Below are positions 5,403 to 44,422 of a stretch of DNA of 64,000 nt, in pieces; the first letter of the stretch is position 1, and every line of letters begins with the position of its first letter. Source of the DNA: Thermalbibacter longus (lineage in GTDB: Bacteria; Chloroflexota; Chloroflexia; Thermomicrobiales; Thermomicrobiaceae); assembly GCF_023806485.1 (NCBI RefSeq), contig NZ_JAMSLR010000009.1, positions 62,001 through 126,000 on the forward strand, read 5' to 3'. The notes under the pieces were generated by a model. That model was not told the origin of the DNA. It did not search any database and was given only the letters and a program-made list of their open reading frames with translations. Position numbers and translations under genes: made by a program.

Positions 5403-5825
5403 GTGTCGCCGAATCCCCGTCGCTCGCTCGCTGTCGTGCCGCTGCTCCTGCTGGTCTTTGCCTGCAGCCGTGGCCCGGCGCCGACGCCAACGCCGACTCT
5501 CACCCCGAGCGACCAGGTCAAGATCGCTGTCCGCTCCTACCTTGCGGCGATCTACGCCGGCGAGGCCGAAAAAGCCTGGGACATGCACACCCGGGAGACC
5601 AATCAGGGCGAATCGTTCGATCAGTTCGCCGAGGCGGTGGACGTCGCCGCCAGTGTGGGGGACCAGATCGAGATTGTCCAGATCGACGAGCCGGAGATCA
5701 ACGGCGAGGAGGCTCGCTGCACCGTCGTGCAGCGGCTGGGCCCGCGCATCTCCGTCTACACCTTCACCCTCCGTTACGAGGACGGCGAGTGGCGCATCCA
5801 TAACCCGGCGCAGTTCAACCCCTGA
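5403..5825 (+). CDS. Small lipoprotein of unknown function
   Basis: This 140-residue protein starts at GTG 5403 behind a near-perfect AGGAGGTGA. Residues 1-20 are basic then hydrophobic and end in a lipobox-like LVFAC, so it is probably lipidated and exported. A low-complexity Pro/Thr linker (PTPTPTLTP) follows. The folded part (about residues 40-140) has a helix then beta pattern ending WRIHNPAQFNP, which resembles small NTF2-like/DUF4878-type domains; that comparison is weak. It precedes the NUDIX gene by 60 bases and may be cotranscribed. No function is claimed. Confidence 0.7.
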   Translation: MSPNPRRSLAVVPLLLLVFACSRGPAPTPTPTLTPSDQVKIAVRSYLAAIYAGEAEKAWDMHTRETNQGESFDQFAEAVDVAASVGDQIEIVQIDEPEINGEEARCTVVQRLGPRISVYTFTLRYEDGEWRIHNPAQFNP

Positions 5826-5885
5826 GCCCCGGGTGTGCGACACTTCGGCGGGAGCGTCCGCGAGGCGCGGGAGGAGCGAGGCGAT

Positions 5886-6380
5886 ATGGAAGAGCGGGAG
5901 CGAGCGCTGCACGTCGTCGCGGTCGGCGGCGTGGTGGTGCGCGGCGATGCCGTGCTGCTGGTGCGCATGGCTTATGGCCCGGCGCGTGGCCAGTACCTGT
6001 TCCCCGGCGGGCTGGTGGAGCCGGGGGAGACGCTCGACCAGGCGGTCGCGCGCGAGGTCCTCGAGGAGACCAGTGTGGCTGCCGAGCCGATAGGGGTGAT
6101 CGGCCTCCGGACACGCTACGACGGGCCGCGCTCGGATACCTACGTCATGTTCCTCCTGGAGCACCGCTCGGGCGAGCCGCACCCGGACGGCCAGGAGAGC
6201 GACGACGCCCGCTACTTCGGCCTGCCCGAGCTGGAGGCCGCTGGCGATGCGGTCACCGGGCTCTCGCGCTACGTCTCGCTTCGGGTACTGCGCGGGGAGT
6301 ACTGCCTCCAGCGCTTCGCCGCCGACTTCGACTACCGCGCCGCCGGGCGCGACCCGGAGCGCTGGCGGATATTCTGCTGA
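5886..6380 (+). CDS. NUDIX hydrolase
   Basis: This 164-residue protein is taken from ATG 5886, which sits behind GGAGGAGCGAGG; a GTG at 5835 would add 17 residues without a good ribosome site. The Nudix box reads G-LVEPG-E-TLDQAVA-RE-VL-EE-TSV, matching Gx5Ex7REUxEExGU except that Ser replaces the last Gly. The fold hydrolyses nucleoside diphosphates linked to another moiety, with Mg2+ bound by the RE..EE residues. The sequence does not identify the substrate. It lies tail-to-tail with the ThDP enzyme gene. Confidence 0.88.
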   Translation: MEERERALHVVAVGGVVVRGDAVLLVRMAYGPARGQYLFPGGLVEPGETLDQAVAREVLEETSVAAEPIGVIGLRTRYDGPRSDTYVMFLLEHRSGEPHPDGQESDDARYFGLPELEAAGDAVTGLSRYVSLRVLRGEYCLQRFAADFDYRAAGRDPERWRIFC

Positions 6381-32401: not shown

Positions 32402-33433
32402 TTAGGCCCCTGCGCCGGGGTGAACGTATTCGGCGGGGTTAGCGAGGAAATGCCGTCGACAGGCCGGGCAACAGAAGTAGTAGCGCCGCCCCTGGTACTC
32501 GGCCGTGTGCCGCGCACCAGCGATCTCCACCGTCATGCCGCACACCGGGTCGACCGCGGTCGATGGCTCAGCCGGCTCGCGCAGCTCTGGTATGCCGCCC
32601 GCGAGAGGTTGCAGTGCCGGCTTGTGCGCGATGATCTCGGCCAGAATGCTCACCGCGATCTCCTCAGGGGCAACCGCGCCGATGTCCAGGCCCGCCGGGG
32701 CCTTGACTCGTGAGAGCAGATCAGGCGGAAGTCCCGACGCCTCGAGCGTTGACCGAACCGCGTCGAAGCGCCGGCGACTGGCGACGAGCGCCACGAACCC
32801 AGCCCCGGCCTGAAGCGCCCGCTCGACCGCCTCCTCGTCGTACTGCCCCATAGTGGCGACTACCGCGACCGTCTGCCGGCCGCGCACCAGCTCGTCGATA
32901 TCGAGGGTGGCCAGCGTCAGGTCGGCCTCCTCGACCGGCCCGACCGTGCCAGGCCGAACCGCCACTACCCGGTAGCCCATGGCGCGCCCGAGCCTGATCA
33001 GCGCCTGCGCGACGGGGCTCTCGCCGAAGACGAGGAGCTGCAGCGCAGGCAGGAACGGCTCGAGGAAGACCTCCAGCGCCCCGCCGCTGTGGCAGGTCAT
33101 CGGCACGACCACCACATCGCGGCGGTCGCTGGCGAGCTGGCCTTCCGGATCGAGCCGCAGAATGCGCGATCGCCCGTCCGCCAGTGCCTTGAGTGCCTCC
33201 TGGATGACCGCCGGCTGGGCACAGCTTCCCCCGACCCAGCCGAACAGCGCGCCATCGGCAGTGACGATCCCCTTCGCACCGGGCTTGGCCGAGGTGGGCC
33301 GCTGGCTCCAGATCACTGTGGCCAGCACGAAGGGCCGGCCGGCCTTTTTCAAGGCTGCGGCCCGTTCGAAGATATCCTGCGAGAGCATTGGCCCGCTCGC
33401 GGCGAGTGGCCGGCCGGCCTCGTCGATCGCCAT
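32402..33433 (-). CDS. XdhC/CoxI-type Mo-enzyme maturation protein fused to a C-terminal YHS domain
   Basis: This 343-residue protein has an N-terminal XdhC domain (IFERAAALKKAGRPFVLATVI, WVGGSCAQPAVIQEAL with the conserved Cys), a Rossmann-like XdhC C-terminal domain (LLVFGESPVAQALIRLGRAMGYRV; ASRRRFDAV; GLDIGAVAPEEIAVSILAEI), and then from about residue 293 a YHS domain (DPVCGMTVEIAG ... YYFCCPACRRHFLANPAEY). XdhC proteins bind and sulfurate the molybdenum cofactor and insert it into xanthine dehydrogenase-family enzymes. YHS domains bind metal, often copper. It lies directly downstream of coxL. ATG 33433 has GGGAG eight bases ahead. Confidence 0.9.
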   Translation of the reverse strand: MAIDEAGRPLAASGPMLSQDIFERAAALKKAGRPFVLATVIWSQRPTSAKPGAKGIVTADGALFGWVGGSCAQPAVIQEALKALADGRSRILRLDPEGQLASDRRDVVVVPMTCHSGGALEVFLEPFLPALQLLVFGESPVAQALIRLGRAMGYRVVAVRPGTVGPVEEADLTLATLDIDELVRGRQTVAVVATMGQYDEEAVERALQAGAGFVALVASRRRFDAVRSTLEASGLPPDLLSRVKAPAGLDIGAVAPEEIAVSILAEIIAHKPALQPLAGGIPELREPAEPSTAVDPVCGMTVEIAGARHTAEYQGRRYYFCCPACRRHFLANPAEYVHPGAGA

Positions 33434-33622: not shown

Positions 33623-35968
33623 CTACTCAGCGACCCCCTTCTCGAGCAAGATCTGGTAGACCTTGGCCGGCGTGATCGGGATGTCGATGTGGCGCACGCC
33701 CAGATGGCTCAGCGCGTCGACCACCGCGTTGACGATGGCCGGCGGAGCGCCGATGGTCGGGCTCTCGCCTACCCCCTTCGCGCCCAGCGGGTGATGCGGT
33801 GACGGCGTCACGGTCTTATCGGTCTTCCAGTGCGGCGTCTCCATCGCCGTGGGCAGCAGGTAGTCCATGAAGGTGCCGGTGAGCATGGTGCCGTTCTCGT
33901 CGTAGACGATCTCCTCGAAGAGCGCCGGGGCTAACCCCATGGTCAGCCCGCCGTGAATTTGCCCCTCGACGATCATCGGGTTGATGATGGTGCCGCAATC
34001 GTCCACGGCCAAGAACTCCCGTACCTTCACCTGACCGGTGCCGCGGTCGATATCGACGACGCACACGTAGGCGCCGAAGGGGAACGTCAGGTTGGGCGGG
34101 TCGTAGTAGCAGACCGCCTCCAGGCCACCCTCTAGACCTTGCGGGAAGTTGGTGTAGGCGGCGAAGGCGATCTCCTGCATCGTCTTGAACCGATCCGGGG
34201 CGCCCTTGACCCGGAAGGCGTAGTCGCGCCACTCAAGGTCGTCCGGGCTCACCTCGAGCAGGTGGGCAGCGATGAGCCGGGCCTTCTCCCGGATCTTGCG
34301 CGCAGCCACCGCGGTGGCCGCGCCGGCAGTCGGCGTGCTGCGGCTGGCGTAGGTACCGAGCCCGTAGGGCGCGGTGTCGGTGTCACCGTGCTCGACGATG
34401 ATGTTCTCAACCGGCAGGCCCAGCTCCTCGGCCACGATCTGGGCGAAGGTCGTCTCGTGGCCCTGGCCCTGCGTCTGCACGCCGATGCGGACGATGGCCG
34501 AGCCCGTGGGGTGGACGCGGATCTCGGCGCTGTCGAACATCTTGATCCCGAGGATGTCGAACGTGTGTGACGGGCCGGCGCCGACGATCTCGGTGAAGGT
34601 CGAGATGCCGATACCCATCAGCTCCCCGCGGGCGCGCCGCTCGGCCTGCTCGCGGCGCAGCTCCTGGTAGCCGATCGCGTCGAGCGCCTTCTGCAGCGTG
34701 GCCGGGTAGTTGCCACTGTCGTATTCCCATCCGGTCGGCGACTTGTAGGGGAACTGCTCCGGCCGGATGAAGTTCTTAAAGCGGATCTCCGCCGGGTCCA
34801 TGCCCAGCTCGTCGGCTAGGATATCCACCATCCGCTCGATCGTGTGCACCGCCTCGGTAACCCGGAACGAGCAGCGGTAGGCCACACCGCCGGGCGGCTT
34901 GTTGGTGTAGACTCCGTCGACGGCCACGTGAGCCGCTTCCATATCGTACGAGCCGGTGCAGACGCTGAAGAGACCGGCCGGGAACTTCGACGGGTTCGCG
35001 GCGGCGTCGAACGCGCCATGGTCGGCGACCGTGTGCACGCGCATGGCCCGGATCTTGCCGTCCCGCGTGGCGGCCAGCTCGGCGTGGATGTGGTAGTCGC
35101 GGGCGAACGTGTCGGCCTGGAGGTTCTCCGAGCGGTCCTCGATCCACTTGATCGGCTTGCCCAGCTTCAGCGCCGCATAGGTGGCGATGACGTAGCCGGG
35201 GTAGACCGGTACCTTGCCGCCGAAGCCACCGCCGATGTCCGGCGAGATGATCCGGATCTTGTGCTCGGGGATGCCGCTCACCAGCGAGAAGACAGTGCGG
35301 TGCGCGTGCGGCGCCTGGGAGGTCATCCAGATCGTCAGCTTGTCCGTCGCCCGGTCGTAGTTGACCACGCAGCCGCAGGTCTCGATCGAGCAGACGTGGA
35401 TGCGCGGGATGTAGAGATCCTGGCTGACGACGACCTGGGCTTCCTGGAAGATGCGGTCGGTCTTCTCCTTGTCGCCCGCCTCCCAGTGCCAGATGTGGTT
35501 GGTCTTCTGCTCGCGATCCGGCCGGACCAGCGGCGCGCCGGGCTCCAGCGCCTTGAACGGGTCCAGCACCGGCGTCAGCGGCTCGTACTCGACCTCGACC
35601 GCCAGCACCGCATCGGCCGCCGTATAGCGATCGGTGGCGACGACCGCCGCCACCTCCTGGGCGTAGTAGACGACCCGATCGGTCGGCAGCACCATCTGGC
35701 GGTCGCTCATCAGCGTCGGCATCCAGGCGAGCCCGGCCTTCTCCAGCTCGGCGCCGGTGATGACGTCGACGACGCCGGGCATGGCGAGCGCCTTGGATGC
35801 GTCGATCCGCTTGATGCGGGCGTGCGCGTAGGGGCTGCGCACGATGTCGAGGTAGAGCATGCCGGGGAGCTTGATGTCGTCGACGTAGGTGCCCTTGCCC
35901 CGGATGAAGCGGGGATCCTCCTTGCGCTTGACCGGATGGCCGAGGCCACGGATCGGCGTGGTTGTCAT
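33623..35968 (-). CDS. coxL: Form I aerobic carbon monoxide dehydrogenase, large (Mo) subunit CoxL
   Basis: This 781-residue molybdenum hydroxylase large subunit has the active-site loop AYRCSFR with Cys366. That matches the AYxCSFR signature of form I CoxL, in which this Cys carries the Cu of the Mo-S-Cu centre. Other family motifs are SPDIGGGFGGKVPVYPGY, QGQGHETTFAQIVAEELG, TYASRSTPTAGAATA and the catalytic Glu in AKGVGESPT. It oxidises CO to CO2 with water, handing electrons to CoxS. It lies last of coxM-S-L, 4 bases after coxS. The assignment as true CO dehydrogenase rests on the form I motif. Confidence 0.96.
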   Translation of the reverse strand: MTTTPIRGLGHPVKRKEDPRFIRGKGTYVDDIKLPGMLYLDIVRSPYAHARIKRIDASKALAMPGVVDVITGAELEKAGLAWMPTLMSDRQMVLPTDRVVYYAQEVAAVVATDRYTAADAVLAVEVEYEPLTPVLDPFKALEPGAPLVRPDREQKTNHIWHWEAGDKEKTDRIFQEAQVVVSQDLYIPRIHVCSIETCGCVVNYDRATDKLTIWMTSQAPHAHRTVFSLVSGIPEHKIRIISPDIGGGFGGKVPVYPGYVIATYAALKLGKPIKWIEDRSENLQADTFARDYHIHAELAATRDGKIRAMRVHTVADHGAFDAAANPSKFPAGLFSVCTGSYDMEAAHVAVDGVYTNKPPGGVAYRCSFRVTEAVHTIERMVDILADELGMDPAEIRFKNFIRPEQFPYKSPTGWEYDSGNYPATLQKALDAIGYQELRREQAERRARGELMGIGISTFTEIVGAGPSHTFDILGIKMFDSAEIRVHPTGSAIVRIGVQTQGQGHETTFAQIVAEELGLPVENIIVEHGDTDTAPYGLGTYASRSTPTAGAATAVAARKIREKARLIAAHLLEVSPDDLEWRDYAFRVKGAPDRFKTMQEIAFAAYTNFPQGLEGGLEAVCYYDPPNLTFPFGAYVCVVDIDRGTGQVKVREFLAVDDCGTIINPMIVEGQIHGGLTMGLAPALFEEIVYDENGTMLTGTFMDYLLPTAMETPHWKTDKTVTPSPHHPLGAKGVGESPTIGAPPAIVNAVVDALSHLGVRHIDIPITPAKVYQILLEKGVAE

Positions 35969-35972
35969 GGGC

Positions 35973-36482
35973 TTACTCTCCTCCCGCGATGCCGGCGGTG
36001 GCCGGCGCAGTCTCGCGCATCTTGCGCGCCGCGTACTGGATAGCCTTGACGATGTTGACGTAGCCGGTGCAGCGACACAGGTTCCCTGCGATCGCCTTGC
36101 GGATCTCCTCCTCGCTGGGATCCGGATTCTCCTGGAGCAATGCCACGGCGGTCATTATCATGCCGGGCGTGCAGAAGCCGCACTGGAGGCCATGCTCCTC
36201 CCAAAAGCCCTCCTGCACCGGGTGAAGCTGGCCGTCGCGCTCGAGCCCCTCGACCGTCTGGATCTCGCCGCCGTCGGCCTGCACGGCGAAGACAGTGCAG
36301 GACTTGACCGGGCGACCGTCCCAGAGGACCGTGCAGGCGCCGCAACTGGTCGTGTCGCAGCCGATGTGGGTGCCGGTGAGGTTGAGCACGTCGCGGATGA
36401 AGTGGACCAGCAGCATCCGCGGCTCTACCTCGGCCTGGTAAGGCTGGCCATTGACCGTGAGCTGGATCGGGACTCTCTCCAT
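35973..36482 (-). CDS. coxS: CO dehydrogenase small [2Fe-2S] subunit CoxS
   Basis: This 169-residue protein has two [2Fe-2S] clusters. The plant-type N-terminal set is C42-x4-C47-x2-C50-x11-C62, and the helical C-terminal set is C101-x2-C104-x31-C136-x-C138 (CGFCTPGM and NLCRCTGY). It transfers electrons from the Mo centre of CoxL to the FAD of CoxM. ATG 36482 has GGGAGGGAATCCG ahead and lies 17 bases after the coxM stop. Confidence 0.97.
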
Positions 36483-36499: not shown

Positions 36500-37375
36500 T
36501 CAGCTTGCTGCCTGTGCCCGGCTCAGCGCGGCCTCGAGGGCACGGAACGTCATCGTGCGGGCGACCGCACGCTTGTACTCGGCTGGCCCGCGCAGGTCAG
36601 TAGTGGGATCGGCCGCCTTGGCTGCGAGCTCGGCGGCCGCGCGGAAGAGCTCGCCAGACGGCACCTGGCCGAGCAGTGCGTTCTCGGCCTCCGCGGCGCG
36701 CAGCGGCTTGTAGTACACGTTGGTGAGCCCGATACCGGCACCGGCGATCTTGCCAGCCTCGTCGAGGACCAGGAAAACCGCCGCAGCCGCCACTGCGTAG
36801 TCGCCCACCTTGCGCTCGAACTTTACGTATGCTCCGCCGGAACGCGGCGGGGGCGCCGGCACCCGGATCTCGGTGAGGATCTCGTCCGGGCCGAGCGCCG
36901 TGGTGAAGGTGTCGACGAAGAAGTCGTCGATCGGGATGGTCCGCTCGCCGCCCGGCCCGCGGGCAACCACCTCGGCCCGGAGCGCCAGCATGGTTGCCGG
37001 GTGGTCGTTGGCCGGGTCGCCGTGGGCCAGGTTGCCGCCGATGGTGGCCAGGTTGCGGACCAGCGGGTCGGCGATGACCTCCGCGGTGTCGGCGATGATC
37101 GGGTAGCGCTGGCGGATGAGCGGCGAGCGCTCCAGGGCGACCTCGCGCACCAGCCCGCCGATGGCGAGGATGCCGTTGCGCTCCTCGATAGCGTCGAGGC
37201 CCGGGACGCGGTTGATGTCGACGATGACGGCAGGCTCGGCGAGGCGGAACTTCATCATCGGGATGAGGCTCTGGCCGCCGCTGAGCACCTTGGCCTCACC
37301 GCCGTACTGCTGGAGCAGCGCGATGGCCTCCTCGATCGATGCCGCCCTGCGATAGCTGAACGGTCCTGGGATCAT
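36500..37375 (-). CDS. coxM: CO dehydrogenase medium (FAD) subunit CoxM
   Basis: This 291-residue protein starts at ATG 37375 ([18 protein letters not shown]) with GGAGGTCAGAGCC ahead; the reading frame extends upstream but with unrelated sequence. FAD-binding segments are [17 protein letters not shown] and [17 protein letters not shown], as in all CO dehydrogenase/xanthine dehydrogenase flavin subunits. A C-terminal CO_deh_flav_C domain begins near residue 175. It passes electrons to the respiratory chain. It is first of the cox operon; the promoter should lie in the 288-base divergent gap upstream. Confidence 0.95.
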
Positions 37376-37663: not shown

Positions 37664-38221
37664 ATGGCCGTGCATGCGCTCAAGCACCGGTTTACGGTCT
37701 CGGAGTACCGCCGGATGGTGGAGGCGGGCATCTTCGGTGAAGATGACCGTGTCGAACTCCTCGAGGGAGAAATCGTCCAGATGAGCCCGATCGGCAGCCG
37801 ACACGCGGCATGCGTGGCTCGGCTTACCACGCTCTTGGCCCGCCTCCACGATCGAGCGATCCCCTGGGTGCAGAACCCCGTCGTGCTGGGCGAATACTCG
37901 GAGCTTCAGCCAGATATCACGCTGCTGCGCTTCCGCGAAGATTTCTATGCCCAGACGCTTCCCGGCCCACACGACGTCCTGCTGCTCATCGAAGTCGCTG
38001 ACAGCTCGGTGGAGTACGACCAGGAAATCAAGGTGCCACTCTATAGTCGCGCGGGAGTGGCCGAGGTCTGGCTGGTGAACCTCGTGCAGCAGCGGGTAAC
38101 CGTCTACGGGGCTCCCTCACCCGTGGGCTACCAGGAGGTTCGAGTCGCGACCCCGGGCGAGACGGTGAGCCCCCGCAGCTTCCCAGAGCTGGAGATCAGC
38201 GTCGGCGAGCTGCTGGGCTAA
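37664..38221 (+). CDS. Uma2-family (DUF820) putative restriction endonuclease-fold protein
   Basis: This 185-residue protein starts at ATG 37664 behind AGGAGGCATCGC. It has the Uma2 pattern RFTVSEYRRMVEAGIFGEDDRVELLEGEI, then the PD-(D/E)xK core: QPDITLL (Asp), LLLIEVADSS (Glu) and YDQEIKVPLYSRAGV (Lys). Uma2 proteins are very common in Chloroflexota and cyanobacteria in many copies and their role is unresolved. It stands alone, divergent from coxM. Confidence 0.9.
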   Translation: MAVHALKHRFTVSEYRRMVEAGIFGEDDRVELLEGEIVQMSPIGSRHAACVARLTTLLARLHDRAIPWVQNPVVLGEYSELQPDITLLRFREDFYAQTLPGPHDVLLLIEVADSSVEYDQEIKVPLYSRAGVAEVWLVNLVQQRVTVYGAPSPVGYQEVRVATPGETVSPRSFPELEISVGELLG

Positions 38222-38282
38222 CCTCGCGACGGCATCGGGCGGCGACGCGGCGCGGGCGGGTAAGGCCCGCCCGCGTGTCCTC

Positions 38283-40195
38283 TTAGAGGCTGAGGTGCTG
38301 GCTGAACCAGCCGAGGATGCGCTCCAGGAGATCGCGCTGGTGGTTCCGCTCCTCGAAGCCATGACCCTCGCGTGGATAGGTCACGAGCTGGCACTCGACC
38401 CCGAGCGCCCGCAACGCCTGGTACATCTGGATGCTCTCGCTGGCCGCGACGCGCCGGTCGTCCTCGCCGTGGACGATCAGTAACGGCGTACGGACGCTGC
38501 GCGCGTAGCGGATCGGCGAGCGGTCCCAGTACGGTTCCGGGTCCTCGTAGGGCGAGCGCTCGAAGTACGAGAGGTTCGCGCTCGGGATGTCGCCCAGGCT
38601 GTTGTCGCTGATCAGGTTGCAGAGGCCAGCGCCCATCACGGCAGCCTTGAAGCGGTCGGTCTGGGTGATCGTCCAGGCCGTCATGTAACCGCCCCAGCTC
38701 CAACCGCACACGCCGAGGCGGTTGGGGTCGGCGATGCCGCGCGCGATCAGCGCGTCCACGCCGGCCATCAGATCGCGAAACTCGCCGCCGGCCACGTCGC
38801 CGAAGATCGCGTTGGCCCAGGCGGGACCGCGCCCGGTGCTACCCCGCGGGTTCGGGAGCAGGACGGCGCAGCCGAGACGAGCCAGGGGCTGCGCCCAGTC
38901 GTGCCAGGAGCCGAGGAACTCGTTCGACCACAGGCTCGTCGGGCCGCCGTGGATCTGCACGATGAGCGGGATGCGCTCTCCCTCCCGGTAGCTCGTCGGG
39001 AGGACGAGCAGGCCCTGGACGATGACGCCCGGGTCACTCTCCCACTCGATGACGCGGCTGCGATCCCTGAGAGTGCTGTCCGTGCTCGTGCCGGCATCCT
39101 AAGGGATATGTCGTCCGGAGCAGCCCTCCAGGCCACCACCTCCGGAGCGTGTCCGGCGTCCGACCACACGCCAGCCAGCCGATCTCCTCCCGCGCTCGCC
39201 GTCACCGCCCCGTGAAACGTCCCGGCTGGGCCAGCCGGCAACAGGCTCTCTCGTCGCCCGTCCCAGCCTATCCGGTAGACCGTGGCCTCCAACCCTTCGA
39301 AGGCCACAGCCAGCAGCGCTCGCCCACCCTCTAGCGGGCGCATCGCTTCGATCGTCCCCGGATAGTCGGAGGTCAAGCAGATCGCGTCACCCCCATCGAC
39401 AGGCCGCGCGAAGACATACTCCCCGTGCACCACTCGGCCTGCCGGCGCCCGGTAGGCCAGCCATTCGCCGTCTGCTGACCAGACCAGGTCTTCCGCCAGC
39501 CCGGTCAGGCGAAAGACCGGTTGTGGCTCGCCACCGTCGCGGTGGAGGATCGCGACCTCCGTTTCCCGGAAGATGTCATCTATCTTCGGGGTGGGACTGG
39601 TGTTGATGGCCAGCCGGCTACTATCCGGAGCCCAGGCGTAACCCCGTACCTGCCGGTCGGGCGGCGAGATCGCCTTGCCCTGACCTGTCTCCGGATCGAT
39701 GACCCACAGCCGCTGGTACTTGTAGTCGGTATCCCAGACGCGCTGGTCTTCCTTCGCCTCTCGTCGCCGCTTCTCCTCCTCCGTCTCGGGATCGGTCATC
39801 AGCACGGCGAGCCAACGGCCATCGGGCGACCACGAGAGCATGGCCAGCTCACCCTGCTGGTCGAAAACGCGCACCGCCTCGCCGCCGTCGCGCGGTATGA
39901 CGTATACGCTCAGCTTGCCCCGCTCGGCGCGGTCGGACAGAAAGGCAAGACGGCTCCCGTCCGGTGACCAGCGCGGGCACTCGTCCTGCCACAGCCCGCT
40001 CGTGAACTGCCGTGGCTCACCCTCGCTGAACGGCACGACCCAGATCGCCGACTCCCAGTGTTCACCGCTCCGGCTAACTGGGCGGAGCACGAACGCGATC
40101 AGCGCGCCGTCCGGCGACACCTGCGCGTCCGACGGCCGCCGATAGCTCACCCACCGCTCGACCTCGAAGCGCCGCGCAGTCGTGTCCGAGTCCAT
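38283..40195 (-). pseudogene. S9 prolyl oligopeptidase-family peptidase with a -1 frameshift near 39100
   Basis: From ATG 40195 (behind AGGGGAGGAC) one frame encodes an N-terminal beta-propeller with repeated WSPDG-type blades (CPRWSPDGSRLAFLSD, MLSWSPDGRWLAVLM). It continues to PDDISLR at about 39103 and then into low-quality sequence to a stop at 38768. The catalytic half continues in the -1 frame from DAGTSTDSTLRDRSRVIEW to 38283. It contains the full triad GWSWGGYM (Ser), HGEDDRRV (Asp) and EGHGFEE (His). Restoring one base near CTTAGGAT joins the two halves into about 637 residues, the normal size for acylaminoacyl-peptidase-like S9C enzymes. Both halves look otherwise intact, so this is a recent mutation or a sequencing error. 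Confidence 0.85.
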
Positions 40196-40310
40196 GTCCT
40201 CCCCTTCCCGACTCATTGTCGCCATTCTCTACGGCTAGGTACCTCTGGCCAGTCGGTTTGCCGCCACGCTGCTGCCGGAGCCAGATCTCACGAGCTGGTC
40301 AGGAGCTCTC

Positions 40311-40928
40311 TCAGAGGCTCTCCTCGAGAAGCGCCTGATAGTCCACCCAGGTGTCGACATCCCTGGGATATGGCGCATCCACGTCGACCACCAGCGCCGA
40401 ACCCAGGAGCCGATCTACCAGCTTCCAGGCCGCCTTGTCCCCCCGCAGAGCCGCCAGCTCGCCGAACAGCTCCCGCCCGAACAGCAGCGGGTGCCCCAGA
40501 TCACCCCGGTAGCGCACGAGGGCGAGGGGTGCCCTCCGCTCCAGCCAGGCAGCCCCTAGCCGGTCGATGACCGTCGCTGAGATCCCAGGCTGGTCGCCGA
40601 GGACGACCATCACTGCCTCGGCGCGCGCCGCCACCGCGTCCAGACCGGCGCGGTAGGAGGCGCTGCAGCCGTCGCTCGGCTGCTCGCTGACCGCCAGCCA
40701 CGCGCGTCCCCAGTCGCGCTCCCTTGCCCAGCTTGCGAGCGCCGGATTGAGCACGACGACCACCTGATCCAGCAGGGCAGCGCGGCAGACCTCTGCGACT
40801 ACCCACTCGAGGAGCGTCCTGCCCCGGTAGGGCAGGAGCTGCTTGGGCTGGCCCATCCGCTCCGACCGGCCTCCGGCCAGCACCAGCCCGGCGATCGATG
40901 TCCGCCCCGGCGCCGCTCCCCGCGTCAC
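40311..40928 (-). CDS. mocA: Molybdenum cofactor cytidylyltransferase-like NTP transferase (MocA/MobA family)
   Basis: This 205-residue protein has the nucleotidyltransferase signature LVLAGGRSERMGQPKQLLPYRG at residues 16-37, the metal-binding VVLGDQPG and RYRGDLGHPLLFGRELF. The PKQLLPY form and GHP motif are typical of MocA, which makes the molybdopterin cytosine dinucleotide used by CO dehydrogenase and xanthine dehydrogenase-type enzymes, rather than MobA. It overlaps the response-regulator gene by four bases (ATGA). A form I cox operon lies 3 kb downstream on the same strand, consistent with that role. Confidence 0.85.
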   Translation of the reverse strand: MTRGAAPGRTSIAGLVLAGGRSERMGQPKQLLPYRGRTLLEWVVAEVCRAALLDQVVVVLNPALASWARERDWGRAWLAVSEQPSDGCSASYRAGLDAVAARAEAVMVVLGDQPGISATVIDRLGAAWLERRAPLALVRYRGDLGHPLLFGRELFGELAALRGDKAAWKLVDRLLGSALVVDVDAPYPRDVDTWVDYQALLEESL

Positions 40929-41572
40929 AGCCAGCCCTTCCGGTTGGCGATCATCACCGCCTCGAGCCGGTTACGGGCACCCAACCGTCGCAGCACCTCC
41001 TGCACATAGCCTTTGACAGTGTTCTCGCTCAGGAAGAGCCGCTCGGCTATCTCACGGTTGGACAGCCCCTGGGCCATCAGCCGCAGTACCGAGAACTGGT
41101 GCGGCGTCAACGGGTGCTTGGGCGGCTGATCCCCCTGCCGCAGCCGCTCCAGCACCACCGTCGCCACTCGCGGGTCGATCACCGCCTCACCCCGAGCGAC
41201 CGCTTTGAGGCTCTGCTTCAGGTCGAAGTGCACGATGTCCTTGAGCACGTAGCCCCGGGCACCGGCCAGTAGGCAGCGGTAGACCAGCTCCTCCTCACCG
41301 AAGGCGCTCAGCACGAGCACCTTGACCTCGGGCGCGCGCTCGGCCAAGAGCCGACACACGTCATCGCCGTGCATCGATGGTAGGCGGACATCGAGCAAGA
41401 CCACGTCCGGCCGCACGGCGTCCACCATCGCCACCCCGCTCGGCCCGTCATCGGCCTCGCCCACGACCACGAAGTCTGGATCACCGTCGAGAATATGCTT
41501 CAGCCCCGTGCGGACGATCTCATGGTCATCGATCATCGCCACGCGCAGAGGCGTGACCACAGCGCGCGCCAC
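40925..41572 (-). CDS. NarL/FixJ-family response regulator
   Basis: This 215-residue protein has a receiver domain (residues 10-125) with acidic pocket IDDHE, phosphoacceptor Asp61 in LLDVRLP and Lys in YVLKDI, and a C-terminal LuxR-type helix-turn-helix (LTPHQFSVLRLMAQGLSNREIAERLFLSENTVKGYVQEVL). It pairs with the histidine kinase whose stop is 3 bases upstream, and its own stop overlaps mocA. The DNA target is unknown; mocA itself and the cox genes are reasonable candidates. Confidence 0.94.
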   Translation of the reverse strand: MARAVVTPLRVAMIDDHEIVRTGLKHILDGDPDFVVVGEADDGPSGVAMVDAVRPDVVLLDVRLPSMHGDDVCRLLAERAPEVKVLVLSAFGEEELVYRCLLAGARGYVLKDIVHFDLKQSLKAVARGEAVIDPRVATVVLERLRQGDQPPKHPLTPHQFSVLRLMAQGLSNREIAERLFLSENTVKGYVQEVLRRLGARNRLEAVMIANRKGWL

Positions 41573-41575
41573 GTC

Positions 41576-42820
41576 TCACCTCCGCGGCTCAGCCGGGATC
41601 ACGGCACGGAGAACCACACCACCGTCCTCGCCGTTCTGCAGGTGGAGCTGCCCGCCGAGCGCCGCCACCCGCCGCTGCATCGAGCGCAGGCCCAGGTGCC
41701 CCGGCCGGTGCAGCGTCCACTCGAGCAGGCTTGCCGGGATACCCCGGCCGTTGTCCTGCACCACCAGCGTCACCGCCTTCGGGCTGTACTGCAAGCTCAC
41801 GATCGCGAGATCTGCCCCCGCGTGCCGCCGCACGTTGGCCAGCGCCTCCGCCACGATCCGCAGAACGGTCTCCTCCGCTTCGTGCGCGAGGCGACGCGGC
41901 CGGCCATCGACGACGAGGTCGACCTGGAGATCCGGCCCCTGGAAGGACTCGACCAGCTCGCGCAGCTCGTGGACGAGCTCCCGTCCGGCCGGTGGTTCGG
42001 CCGCCAGGTCGTAGACCGCCCGGCGGATCTCGGCCGCGCCGCGCGCTGCCAGGTCGCGGATGCGGCCGAGCGATGCGGCCAGCTCCGGCGGGATTCCGTC
42101 CCGCTCCAAACACCAGGTGGCCTCGATGCCGATGCTGAAGATGATCTGCGCCACCCGGTCGTGCAGCTCCTCGGCGATCCGGTTCCGCTCCTGGTGAATC
42201 AGCGCCTCAACCTGGGCCGCGTTCAGCCGGGCATGCAGGGACTGAAGATCGGCGATCATCTGCCGCTGCTGCTCGTAGAGTCGCGCGTTCGCGATCGCCA
42301 CGGCTACTTGATTGGCGAAGGTGCTGAGCAGCCGCTCGTGGCCGGCGTCGTAGCCGTCGGGACGGTTCGCCACCCCGATCATCCCGATCGTCTCGTCGCG
42401 CACCTTGAGGGGCACGCCCAAGAACGTGCGCACTGGCGGGTGCCCGCGCGGTGAGCCGATATGCAGGGGGTCGTTGAGCACATCGTTCGACAGGTTGGAG
42501 CGCCCCTCGAGGATGACCACCCCGAAGATCGTGCGACGGATCGGGATCTTGCGGAAGCGTTCGTAGAACCCGGGCCGATCGGGGACGAAGCCGCGGATAG
42601 CCGCTACGTCCATCGTGTCCGGCCCGTCGACCAGCCCGATAAAGCCGAAGGCTGACGTGGTCAGGGCAAGGCAGTACTCGAGCGCCCGATCCATCACCTG
42701 GCTCAGCTCGCGCAGCCCGGCGATCTCGACCGAGATCGCGTACAGCGATTCGAGCTGAGCCTGCCAGCCGTCGGCGTCGACGGTCGGATGAGGCAGCGAA
42801 TCTGGCAGACGGTACACCAC
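41576..42820 (-). CDS. GAF-domain sensor histidine kinase (HisKA_3/NarX-like)
   Basis: This 414-residue protein is taken from GTG 42820 (V-V-Y-R-L-P), which has GAGGAGAGAG upstream. Residues about 25-190 form a GAF domain (LSQVMDRALEYCLALTTSAFGFIGLVDG ... FLGVPLKVRDETIGMIGVANRP). A coiled linker leads to the HisKA_3 phosphoacceptor His220 in RIAEELHDRVAQ and a HATPase domain with NVRRHAG and VQDNGRGIP. There is no membrane helix, so it senses a cytoplasmic signal. The GAF Cys residues are few, so a redox or small-ligand sensor cannot be distinguished. An inverted repeat GGAGACAG/CTGTCTCC (42845-42852, 42890-42897) lies just upstream. Confidence 0.9.
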   Translation of the reverse strand: MVYRLPDSLPHPTVDADGWQAQLESLYAISVEIAGLRELSQVMDRALEYCLALTTSAFGFIGLVDGPDTMDVAAIRGFVPDRPGFYERFRKIPIRRTIFGVVILEGRSNLSNDVLNDPLHIGSPRGHPPVRTFLGVPLKVRDETIGMIGVANRPDGYDAGHERLLSTFANQVAVAIANARLYEQQRQMIADLQSLHARLNAAQVEALIHQERNRIAEELHDRVAQIIFSIGIEATWCLERDGIPPELAASLGRIRDLAARGAAEIRRAVYDLAAEPPAGRELVHELRELVESFQGPDLQVDLVVDGRPRRLAHEAEETVLRIVAEALANVRRHAGADLAIVSLQYSPKAVTLVVQDNGRGIPASLLEWTLHRPGHLGLRSMQRRVAALGGQLHLQNGEDGGVVLRAVIPAEPRR

Positions 42821-43090
42821 GACCGCTCTCTCCTCACGCGCGACGGAGACAGTGTAGCATCGCCTGCGTACCTTCCGCGAGTACATAGGCTGTCTCCCTG
42901 GACACCAGCCGAGGCCAGGGATGAGCTGCCTCCCCGAGTGCGTGGACTCGATAGGTGTAACGCCGTTCGCCCGCCTCCAGCCCGCGCATGCCGACTCGAG
43001 GGCGTCCGGGCCAACCGGCCATCCCGCTTCGCAGTCCCGGCAGCGCGTGCTACTCTTCCCTCGACATCGGATCGCGCGAGGGAGGACAGC

Positions 43091-44422
43091 ATGGTGATCG
43101 GCAAGCTCGCCGACCGGCTGGTCGCCGAGGGCTACGCCCACCTCTGGATCTGCTACACCGACTACAACGGCCGTCTCGCCGGGCGTAGCATCCCGCGCTC
43201 CCGCTTCGCCCACGTGGCCGAGCGAGGCACCAACTTCGCCAAAGCCAACTTCAACTTCACCATCCTCGACCAACAGGTGCCGGATCCCCGCTTCACCGCC
43301 GACACCGGCGACGTGCTCGCTATCCCCGACTCCGAGGCCGTCTACCCGCTGCCCTTCCACCCGGGCACCGCGCTCTCTTTTGCCATGCTGCACGAGGAGG
43401 ATGGGTCGCTCTGGGACGGCTGCCCCCGTGCTGCACTGCAGCGAGCAGTCGCCGCGCTGGCTGAGGCCGGGCTCAGCGCCCGCATCGGGCTGGAGCCAGA
43501 GTTCTACCTGTTCGAGGACGAGGACCTTACCCCCGCGACGCGGGCCGGGATGTACACCATCGCCGGGCTCGACGCCCAGGCCGCCTTCATCGAGCAGCTC
43601 ACCCAGCATCTGGTCGAGATGGATATTACCCTAGAGCAGATCGGAAAGGAGTACGGGCCAGGCCAGTACGAGGCGACGGCCACCCCGGCCGACCCGGTGA
43701 CTGCGGTCGACCGCTACCTGGTCTTTCGACTGGCGGTGCGCTCCATCGCCCGCGCGCACGGCCTGCGCGCGTCGTTCATGCCTAAGCCAGACGCTACCCT
43801 TGCTGGCTGCGGGCTGCATGTGCACGTGAGCCTGCGCGACCTCGCGACCGGTGCCGACCGCACCGCCGACCCCGACCACCCCAGCGGGCTCTCGGCCGAG
43901 GCGCGCTCCTTCCTGGCGGGCTGGCTCCAGCACGCCGACGCCCTGACAGGCCTCGGCGCTCCGACCGCGAATTCGGCCAAGCGGCTCCAGCCGGCCTCCT
44001 GGGCGCCGGCGCACGTCTGCTGGGGGATCGGGAACCGGGCGGCCCTCGTGCGCGTGCCAGGCCTCGGTGCTCGTGCCCGCCTGGAGTTCCGCTCCGGCGA
44101 TAACACCTGTAACCCGTACCTCTACGTCGCTGGCCTCATCTGGGCCGGGCTGGACGGGTTGCGCCGCGGGCTCGACCCCGGCCCACCGGCCGAGGCCGAT
44201 GTCGGCCGCCTGCCAGCCACCGAGCTGGCCGCCCGCGGCGTCCGGTTCCTGCCGCGGAGCACCGAGGCAGCCCTGGACGCCCTGGACGCCGACACGGCAC
44301 TGGCAGAAGGGCTCGGGCCGCTCCTGCACCAGGAGTTCCTCCGGGTCAAGCGCGCCGAACTAGCGATGTACCGGATCCAGGTCACCCCCTGGGAGCGCGC
44401 GGCCTACTTCGAAGCGCCGTGA
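43091..44422 (+). CDS. Glutamine synthetase-family ligase (gamma-glutamylpolyamine synthetase/GlnT-like)
   Basis: This 443-residue protein starts at ATG 43091 behind GGAGGACAGC. It has GS-I catalytic motifs: LEPEFYLFEDE, EYGPGQYEATATPADP, FMPKPDATLAGCGLHVHVSL and LEFRSGDNTCNPYLYVAGLIWAG. Its length and N-terminus (DYNGRLAGRSIPRSRF) fit the subfamily that glutamylates amines or uses other acceptors, rather than true GlnA, which is usually longer and has the adenylylation Tyr region. Cytoplasmic and ATP-dependent. A FluG-type amidohydrolase in the window (50414-51571) is the usual partner of such enzymes. Confidence 0.85.
   Translation: MVIGKLADRLVAEGYAHLWICYTDYNGRLAGRSIPRSRFAHVAERGTNFAKANFNFTILDQQVPDPRFTADTGDVLAIPDSEAVYPLPFHPGTALSFAMLHEEDGSLWDGCPRAALQRAVAALAEAGLSARIGLEPEFYLFEDEDLTPATRAGMYTIAGLDAQAAFIEQLTQHLVEMDITLEQIGKEYGPGQYEATATPADPVTAVDRYLVFRLAVRSIARAHGLRASFMPKPDATLAGCGLHVHVSLRDLATGADRTADPDHPSGLSAEARSFLAGWLQHADALTGLGAPTANSAKRLQPASWAPAHVCWGIGNRAALVRVPGLGARARLEFRSGDNTCNPYLYVAGLIWAGLDGLRRGLDPGPPAEADVGRLPATELAARGVRFLPRSTEAALDALDADTALAEGLGPLLHQEFLRVKRAELAMYRIQVTPWERAAYFEAP

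Follow-up and report, generated by a model that had tools for sequence, protein, structure and literature searches.

A CoxF-type XdhC protein with a C-terminal YHS domain, a candidate copper-loading factor of form I CO dehydrogenase

Introduction

Aerobic CO dehydrogenase underlies microbial uptake of atmospheric CO. The form I enzyme carries a Mo-S-Cu site, and the model of copper insertion proposed in 2014 was built on a single species, from a suspected site and a suspected phytase motif. In Thermalbibacter longus (Chloroflexota) a stretch of 64,000 nucleotides (contig NZ_JAMSLR010000009.1, positions 62,001 to 126,000, hereafter the window) holds a form I cox cluster in which a protein of the XdhC family continues into a small YHS domain. 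Which step in the assembly of the Mo-S-Cu site is served by this protein, and what is the YHS domain for? In the original prediction, made from the sequence itself, a single chain was thought to couple sulfuration of the molybdenum cofactor with delivery of copper to CoxL.

The fusion gene and its cluster

The fusion gene occupies 32402..33433 on the minus strand and encodes 343 amino acids followed by a stop, as judged from the list of open reading frames, Pfam and orthologues. Three domains of the window protein exceed their curated Pfam cut-offs: an XdhC_CoxI domain (PF02625, residues 30-94, 33152..33346, minus strand, 76 bits against 24.3), an XdhC_C Rossmann domain with a fold match to 2we7/2we8 (PF13478, residues 133-267, 32633..33037, minus strand, 98.5 bits against 29.7) and a YHS domain (PF04945, residues 294-338, 32420..32554, minus strand, 52.6 bits against 30.3, E 4.6e-14). 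The conserved cysteine of the GG-x-C loop of the XdhC/CoxI family is present as Cys71, in the motif GWVGGSC inside the XdhC_CoxI domain (33221-33223, minus strand), and a CoxF-type loop, M112-T-C114-H-S116-G-G118, is encoded at 33080..33100 on the same strand. Within the YHS domain the spacing of residues indicates D295, C298, C321 and C325 as putative metal ligands, with C322 in addition. The reading of this frame as an XdhC-type protein with a C-terminal YHS domain was borne out by the Pfam domains and by the motifs on which it had been based, DPVCGM and YYFCCPACRRHF, both of which are present. It is not a chance frame, since the complete fusion recurs in class genomes, in 80 loci of a contig scan and in six plasmid records.

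The gene lies directly downstream of coxMSL and all of these genes are on the minus strand. The coxL gene (33623..35968) encodes a form I subunit, as had been proposed: it scores 1283 bits with TIGR02416 (cut-off 991), and the cysteine of its AYRCSFR loop is residue 366. The [2Fe-2S] subunit gene coxS (35973..36482, minus strand) was identified by Pfam, and the FAD subunit gene coxM is placed at 36500..37375 (minus strand) with its most likely start, 37375, taken from the protein letters, the mechanical frame starting further upstream. Upstream of the cox genes follow a split S9 peptidase, a MobA-like NTP transferase (40311..40928, minus strand), which is a possible Mo-pterin cytidylyltransferase and has an NTP transferase counterpart in the same place in Thermomicrobium roseum, and a LuxR-type response regulator (40925-41572) with a GAF histidine kinase (41576-43609), which together span 40925..43609 on the minus strand and are possible regulators of the cluster. 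This order is shared with T. roseum. The peptidase (38218-40225) has a frameshift near 39059-39101 in comparison to T. roseum and is a single frame in three relatives (G117, G114 and G118); the split is either a sequencing error or a pseudogene.

Profile searches of the whole genome gave one YHS match, two XdhC_C matches and ten MoCoBD_2 matches. Among the ten MoCoBD_2 proteins, two of which gave no loop call, AYRCSFR is found in the window CoxL only, the other loops being AYRGAGR, SYRGAGR, PYRGAGR, AYRGFGS and AYRAPGA. The second XdhC protein lacks a YHS domain and belongs to a form II cluster together with a MoxR-type CoxD, CoxE and CoxG. CoxD has its sole match in that cluster, and CoxE has its match there and one weak match elsewhere (26.6 bits). 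As CoxD and CoxE are located in the form II cluster, the fusion is the sole form I-specific factor found in this genome. In the form II XdhC (L044:4922-6042) the loop cysteines are absent from the main frame and a small frame, 5707-6042, matches the XdhC N-domain; such a two-frame arrangement is seen in relatives as well.

Identity of the XdhC part

The XdhC part had been described as XdhC/CoxI-like. Its membership of the XdhC family stands; the CoxI identity had to be rejected, for the plasmid match, the tree and the C-x-S loop all indicate CoxF. On plasmid pHCG3 of Afipia (Oligotropha) carboxidovorans OM5 the sole match reported at E<=1e-5 is coxF, a gene for 280 amino acids that comes after coxD and coxE, and its product shares 36.6% identity with the window protein over 73% of the latter. 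In named records the matching protein comes after CoxE or after CoxL. In the tree of the XdhC part, fused proteins and Afipia-type CoxF stand together in a CoxF clade of 109 rows (SH-aLRT 95), and in a smaller tree this clade is separated from five paralogues with support of 100/100. In one reduced tree the CoxF clade took in two form II rows with long branches, and the separation from those rows is weak. The XdhC equivalog profiles remain below their cut-offs (NF045664 with 113 bits against 350, TIGR02964 with 32 against 161.6).

A simple distinguishing mark is a C-x-S-x-G loop, which was present in 107/107 fused frames, in 20/21 unfused CoxF (the exception being a fragment) and in 0/32 other XdhC frames, several of which are cut. 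In CoxF this motif follows the second cysteine and exceeds by two residues the C-G-G found in proteins of the CoxI and XDH types. The copper site suspected in Afipia CoxF is M107-CPSHGTM (PMC4240915), and its M-C-P-S-H-G aligns with M112-T-C-H-S-G-G of the window protein. Judged by these features, the window gene is a coxF. With or without a YHS domain, the C-x-S loop offers a form I-specific sequence mark for the annotation of CO oxidisers.

The likeness to Afipia CoxF covers the XdhC family, the form I cox cluster and both the Cys71 and the C-x-S loops. The Afipia protein differs in having no YHS domain and in coming after CoxD and CoxE, which are missing from the window cluster. The wider family (XdhC of Rhodobacter capsulatus, CoxI, PaoD) has the two-domain fold in common with the window protein, and 2we7/2we8 and 3on5 are solved relatives. 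In contrast to CoxF, the non-CoxF XdhC proteins in the loci examined carry C--GG or no cysteine in place of C-x-S-x-G and lack a YHS domain; such proteins serve copper-free hydroxylases (PMC2997495).

Copper or sulfur

The coupling of two tasks in one chain, put forward in the original prediction, was not supported. CO dehydrogenase from the Afipia coxF mutant contained 1.85 mol/mol molybdenum, 1.40 sulfane sulfur and 0.043 copper, in comparison to 1.73, 1.53 and 1.47 in the wild type grown alike (PMC4240915, Table 1). The mutant enzyme thus retains its sulfane sulfur and is without copper, and in the same work the sulfuration step is assigned to CoxD (PMC4240915). Sulfuration as the main role of the window protein was rejected on this ground. 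That the XdhC body sulfurates molybdenum while the YHS domain adds copper would agree with the description of XdhC proteins as handling the molybdenum cofactor ahead of sulfuration (PMC2997495) and with the position of Cys71 in the conserved XdhC cysteine loop; in a protein of the CoxF type, given the metal content of the mutant enzyme, such a double task seems very improbable. In Afipia the loss of CoxF eliminates CoxE as well (PMC4240915), and the copper defect may therefore not be due to CoxF alone.

The reading we prefer, and consider probable, is that the window protein is a CoxF which completes the form I Mo-S-Cu site and that a flexible linker at its C-terminal side tethers a YHS domain serving to hold Cu(I). 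The occurrence of the fusion beside the same enzyme in related bacteria and in an archaeon suggests a role in copper loading. In the proposed course of events the YHS domain would take Cu(I) from the cytosolic pool by means of C298, C321, C325 and D295. The XdhC body would then dock on folded apo-CO dehydrogenase in which molybdenum is already sulfurated, a state suggested by the Afipia coxF mutant. Finally, copper might pass from the YHS thiolates to the Cys114-x-Ser116 loop, perhaps with the participation of Cys71, and from there to Mo-SH and Cys366 of CoxL. CoxD and CoxE would act from the form II cluster.

Occurrence of the fusion beside form I CO dehydrogenase

The association with form I CO dehydrogenase was followed in 158 genomes of the window's class, chosen irrespective of YHS and searched with the fused protein, a query that favours fused proteins. 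The complete fusion is present in 21 of them and cut pieces in three more (G001, G119 and G148). Form I coxL occurs in 22 genomes, namely 20 with the complete fusion and two of the other 137: G001, where the fusion is cut by a contig end, and G064, where the start of coxF is broken by a stop a few dozen residues in. Conversely, of the 21 genomes that carry the complete fusion, 20 contain a form I coxL at E<=1e-240, and in the remaining one a CoxL fragment of 79% identity adjoins the fusion. The association has a Fisher p of 4e-22 by genome and 6e-10 by genus, kinship being ignored in both. Read locus by locus, form I coxL is adjacent in 19 of 21 cases; in L056 the neighbour is the fragment of 79% identity, and in L059 the fusion stands at a contig end and a CoxL of 75% identity is found elsewhere in the genome.

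A broader view was gained from a contig scan with two patterns, from which the best 80 of 563 loci were kept; one of the patterns was the YHS motif itself, and consequently the set is silent on the frequency of unfused CoxF. In these best 80 of 563 loci the nearest CoxL-like frame is form I in 59, of which 58 share the strand of the fusion, a form I fragment in nine, form II in two and missing in ten. Genome-wide searches for the last 12 recovered CoxL or a piece of it at >=71% identity in ten. The two others, L112 and L148, have no CoxL assignment and lie on contigs that end at or near the fusion; in L129, whose closest CoxL-like gene belongs to form II, form I lies on a separate contig. With coxL or a fragment either adjacent or elsewhere in the genome, 78/80 scan loci are tied to form I. 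In the window's class, fusion loci beside copper-free hydroxylases only were sought and amounted to 0/21. The co-occurrence with form I coxL and not with copper-free hydroxylases, which was the test set by the original prediction, is supported.

By phylum, the best 80 of 563 scan loci comprise Chloroflexota (34), Actinomycetota (9), Acidobacteriota (8), Thermomicrobiota (5), Myxococcota (5), Bacteroidota (4), Gemmatimonadota, Verrucomicrobiota and Pseudomonadota (3 each), and Armatimonadota and Calditrichota (1 each), with four lacking a named phylum. The six plasmid records with the fusion (H1-H6) include Deinococcus, Paraburkholderia, two Caballeronia, the second of which (H6) is known from the match listing alone, and the archaeon Natronorubrum bangense. 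The fusion thus occurs in at least 11 named bacterial phyla of the scan and, on plasmids, in Deinococcota and a haloarchaeon. Among its carriers is T. roseum (orthologue WP_143714800.1), which oxidises CO (PMC2615216). The plasmid cluster of this species, given as Mo-CODH trd_A0564-6 in PMC2615216, carries AYRCSFR. Another cluster, trd_1206-1215 with maturation genes, is called type I in PMC6776052; by analogy with the window genome it may be form II. Loop variants of CoxL were noticed as well, AYRCSFM in Caballeronia SBC1 (L085) and SYRCSFR in several Pseudomonadota.

It could be argued that a YHS gene of metal resistance joined coxF through a shared neighbourhood and has no function in assembly. 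The domain is indeed promiscuous, being fused in this class to kinases, ABC ATPases, ferredoxin-like proteins and monooxygenases. Against such hitch-hiking stands its retention across this range of bacterial phyla, Deinococcota and the haloarchaeon, together with the near invariance of its cysteines, and we regard it as extremely unlikely.

The YHS domain as a metal site

For conservation counts, fused frames that agreed in their last 200 residues were counted once, which reduced 107 to 93. Cys71 and Cys114 are kept in all 93 distinct fused proteins and Ser116 in 92; in the YHS domain C325 is kept in 93, C298 and C321 in 92 each, D295 in 82 and C322 in 76. A degenerate YHS domain, with D and T at the positions of C298 and C321, was seen in the CoxF of a form I cluster on plasmid p380k of Deinococcus sp. 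AJ005 (L082), and a tandem pair of YHS domains, the second with FCAAGC, in the CoxF fusions L060 and L062 (genomes G084 and G083). In the AF2 model of the whole protein (65 sequences, pLDDT 90, pTM 0.77) two confidently predicted parts are connected by a loose linker, residues 271-290, with pLDDT 68 and 59 in its two blocks. Modelled alone, the YHS domain consists of strands and two helices. A fold search with the whole model returned only XdhC and Rossmann-type proteins, the YHS part being barely probed; the YHS model searched alone had no match at E<=0.001, and a PDB sequence search with this domain gave no convincing match.

Treble clefs related to YHS/TRASH bind zinc. The YHS domain could therefore be a structural zinc treble clef by which CoxF docks on form I CoxL or on CoxE, without any copper. 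The fold matches listed for the YHS model, all of them weak with E 0.096 or worse, include ribosomal chains as well as subunits of the toluene, phenol and methane monooxygenase hydroxylases, and the variation at the D295 ligand position points in the same direction. A zinc site has no need of the additional vicinal Cys322, the association is with the copper-dependent form I enzyme, and the closest sequence relatives outside the fusion, in the plasmid listing, belong to copper and silver pumps. On balance, a zinc-bound docking element is judged unlikely. The pumps in question are P1B-type ATPases (SilP and its relatives) with about 40-51% identity in the YHS domain; beyond T. roseum, 60 rows spread over 3159 plasmid records, with redundant Klebsiella among them, comprise 56 heavy-metal, silver or copper P-type ATPases. 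The SilP-type domain is part of a membrane pump, whereas that of the window belongs to a molybdoenzyme factor.

A measured case for comparison is the adenylyl cyclase of M. phlei, whose C-terminal YHS domain confers copper-specific activation, Cu2+ turning the enzyme on; its likely ligands are an Asp and three Cys (PMC4626032). By spacing, this set is matched by D295, C298, C321 and C325 of the window protein, from which we infer that the window YHS binds copper. The domain had been introduced in the original prediction as a fold linked with copper, which is fair in view of the M. phlei domain and the Cu/Ag pump relatives; the link is nevertheless indirect, for YHS/TRASH folds take other metals too, and L24e, which has this fold, binds cadmium in a crystal (PMC4626032).

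The M. phlei domain is a sensor, and delivery is not part of its function as described. The window YHS could likewise be a copper sensor and not a donor, with copper switching the CoxF body to act only when the metal is available. This idea gains from the fact that the measured YHS case is a regulator (PMC4626032) and from histidine kinase-YHS fusions in the class, and it loses because the client enzyme needs copper and the CoxF body has a proposed copper loop, which makes delivery the simpler account of the pairing, and because a loose linker suits transfer more than tight allostery. We take a sensory role to be improbable and retain the view of the YHS domain as a copper-holding site that serves CoxF. 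A TRASH-fold copper chaperone is described in archaea, CopM (PMC7830388); it is a separate protein and is compared here by description only. In the account given by PMC3551603 the TRASH domain sits in the regulator and not in a chaperone.

There are 76 YHS matches in 45 of the 158 class genomes. Twenty long-frame YHS proteins outside the CoxF places of this class (L346-L365) were read by eye. No XdhC protein is among these 20, which are histidine kinases, ABC ATPases, ferredoxin-like proteins and monooxygenases. Those with histidine kinase, ABC ATPase or ferredoxin-like parts are possible copper sensors or regulators.

No published XdhC-YHS or CoxF-YHS fusion was found by title or abstract start in the open-licence PMC literature. 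The copper role of CoxF is already known from the YHS-less Afipia protein, and for a YHS-bearing CoxF we found no report. The small and conserved metal domain that CoxF carries in many lineages is a concrete candidate for the copper donor.

Unfused CoxF and the history of the YHS domain

Two further samples, 398 genomes of Pseudomonadota and 396 of Actinomycetota, were chosen irrespective of YHS and searched with the fused query, which again favours fused proteins. In Pseudomonadota a CoxF-like protein at E<=1e-30 is present in 18 genomes, form I coxL at E<=1e-250 in 16 and both in 15. In G170 and G181 the CoxF-like gene lies beside a cut CoxL fragment; G316 has two paralogue-type proteins with cox genes absent nearby, and G543, which has form I, lacks a CoxF-like match at E<=1e-30. 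The Pseudomonadota CoxF is fused only in G170 and G499 and unfused in 15 genomes. The YHS domain is thus dispensable in Afipia and in these 15, as their CoxF does without it.

Matches were found in 66 genomes of Actinomycetota, from which 65 loci were read, G174 being excluded as identical with scan locus L153. The 57 fused loci have form I coxL in 48 cases, a form I fragment in five and neither in four (three contig-end cuts and one 135-aa piece), with AYRCSFR and AYACSFR both accepted in the form I counts of this phylum. Seven of the eight unfused proteins stand beside form I, four of them contig-end cuts and three intact (L332, L334 and L336), and the eighth, L340, is beside an enzyme that is not form I. 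It can be said that outside Pseudomonadota the fused form is dominant.

Was the YHS domain gained by some CoxF or lost by others? The larger trees place the unfused CoxF of Pseudomonadota as one clade nested among fused proteins. The reduced trees, for which 37 fused rows were hand-picked for spread, had two form II rows dropped before the AU test; with 58 rows the test does not reject a tree in which all fused proteins form a single clade (AU p 0.41), and this clade appears in 24% of bootstrap trees. An ancestral fusion with later loss is only favoured, owing to the nesting in the larger trees, yet the AU test keeps the alternative. The unfused Actinomycetota proteins L332 and L334 sit in a mostly fused clade, a placement which points to losses of the YHS domain in this phylum.

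A more far-reaching proposal may be put forward tentatively, as a possibility that we hold with some doubt: CoxF-YHS could be the original and default copper-loading factor, or metallochaperone, of the form I Mo-S-Cu site, from which Afipia CoxF would be derived by loss of the YHS domain, with the C-x-S loop as the shared transfer site and the YHS domain as a store of Cu(I) that hands copper to it. In any case, the fused CoxF gives ground for doubting models based solely on the YHS-less Afipia protein.

Some minor observations concern the same loci. In AYACSFR an alanine replaces the arginine before the copper cysteine; the variant was seen in the Actinomycetota CoxL of L313, L318, L320-L325, L327, L329, L332, L333, L336, L339, L341, L342 and L345. 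Where the YHS domain is absent, the tail of L334 ends in GGGCCGHGSG and that of L332 in HCAAHGH, and the Natronorubrum fusion (L084) has SCCGGG in the linker beside its YHS domain. These tails and this linker, rich in cysteine or histidine, could be metal sites.
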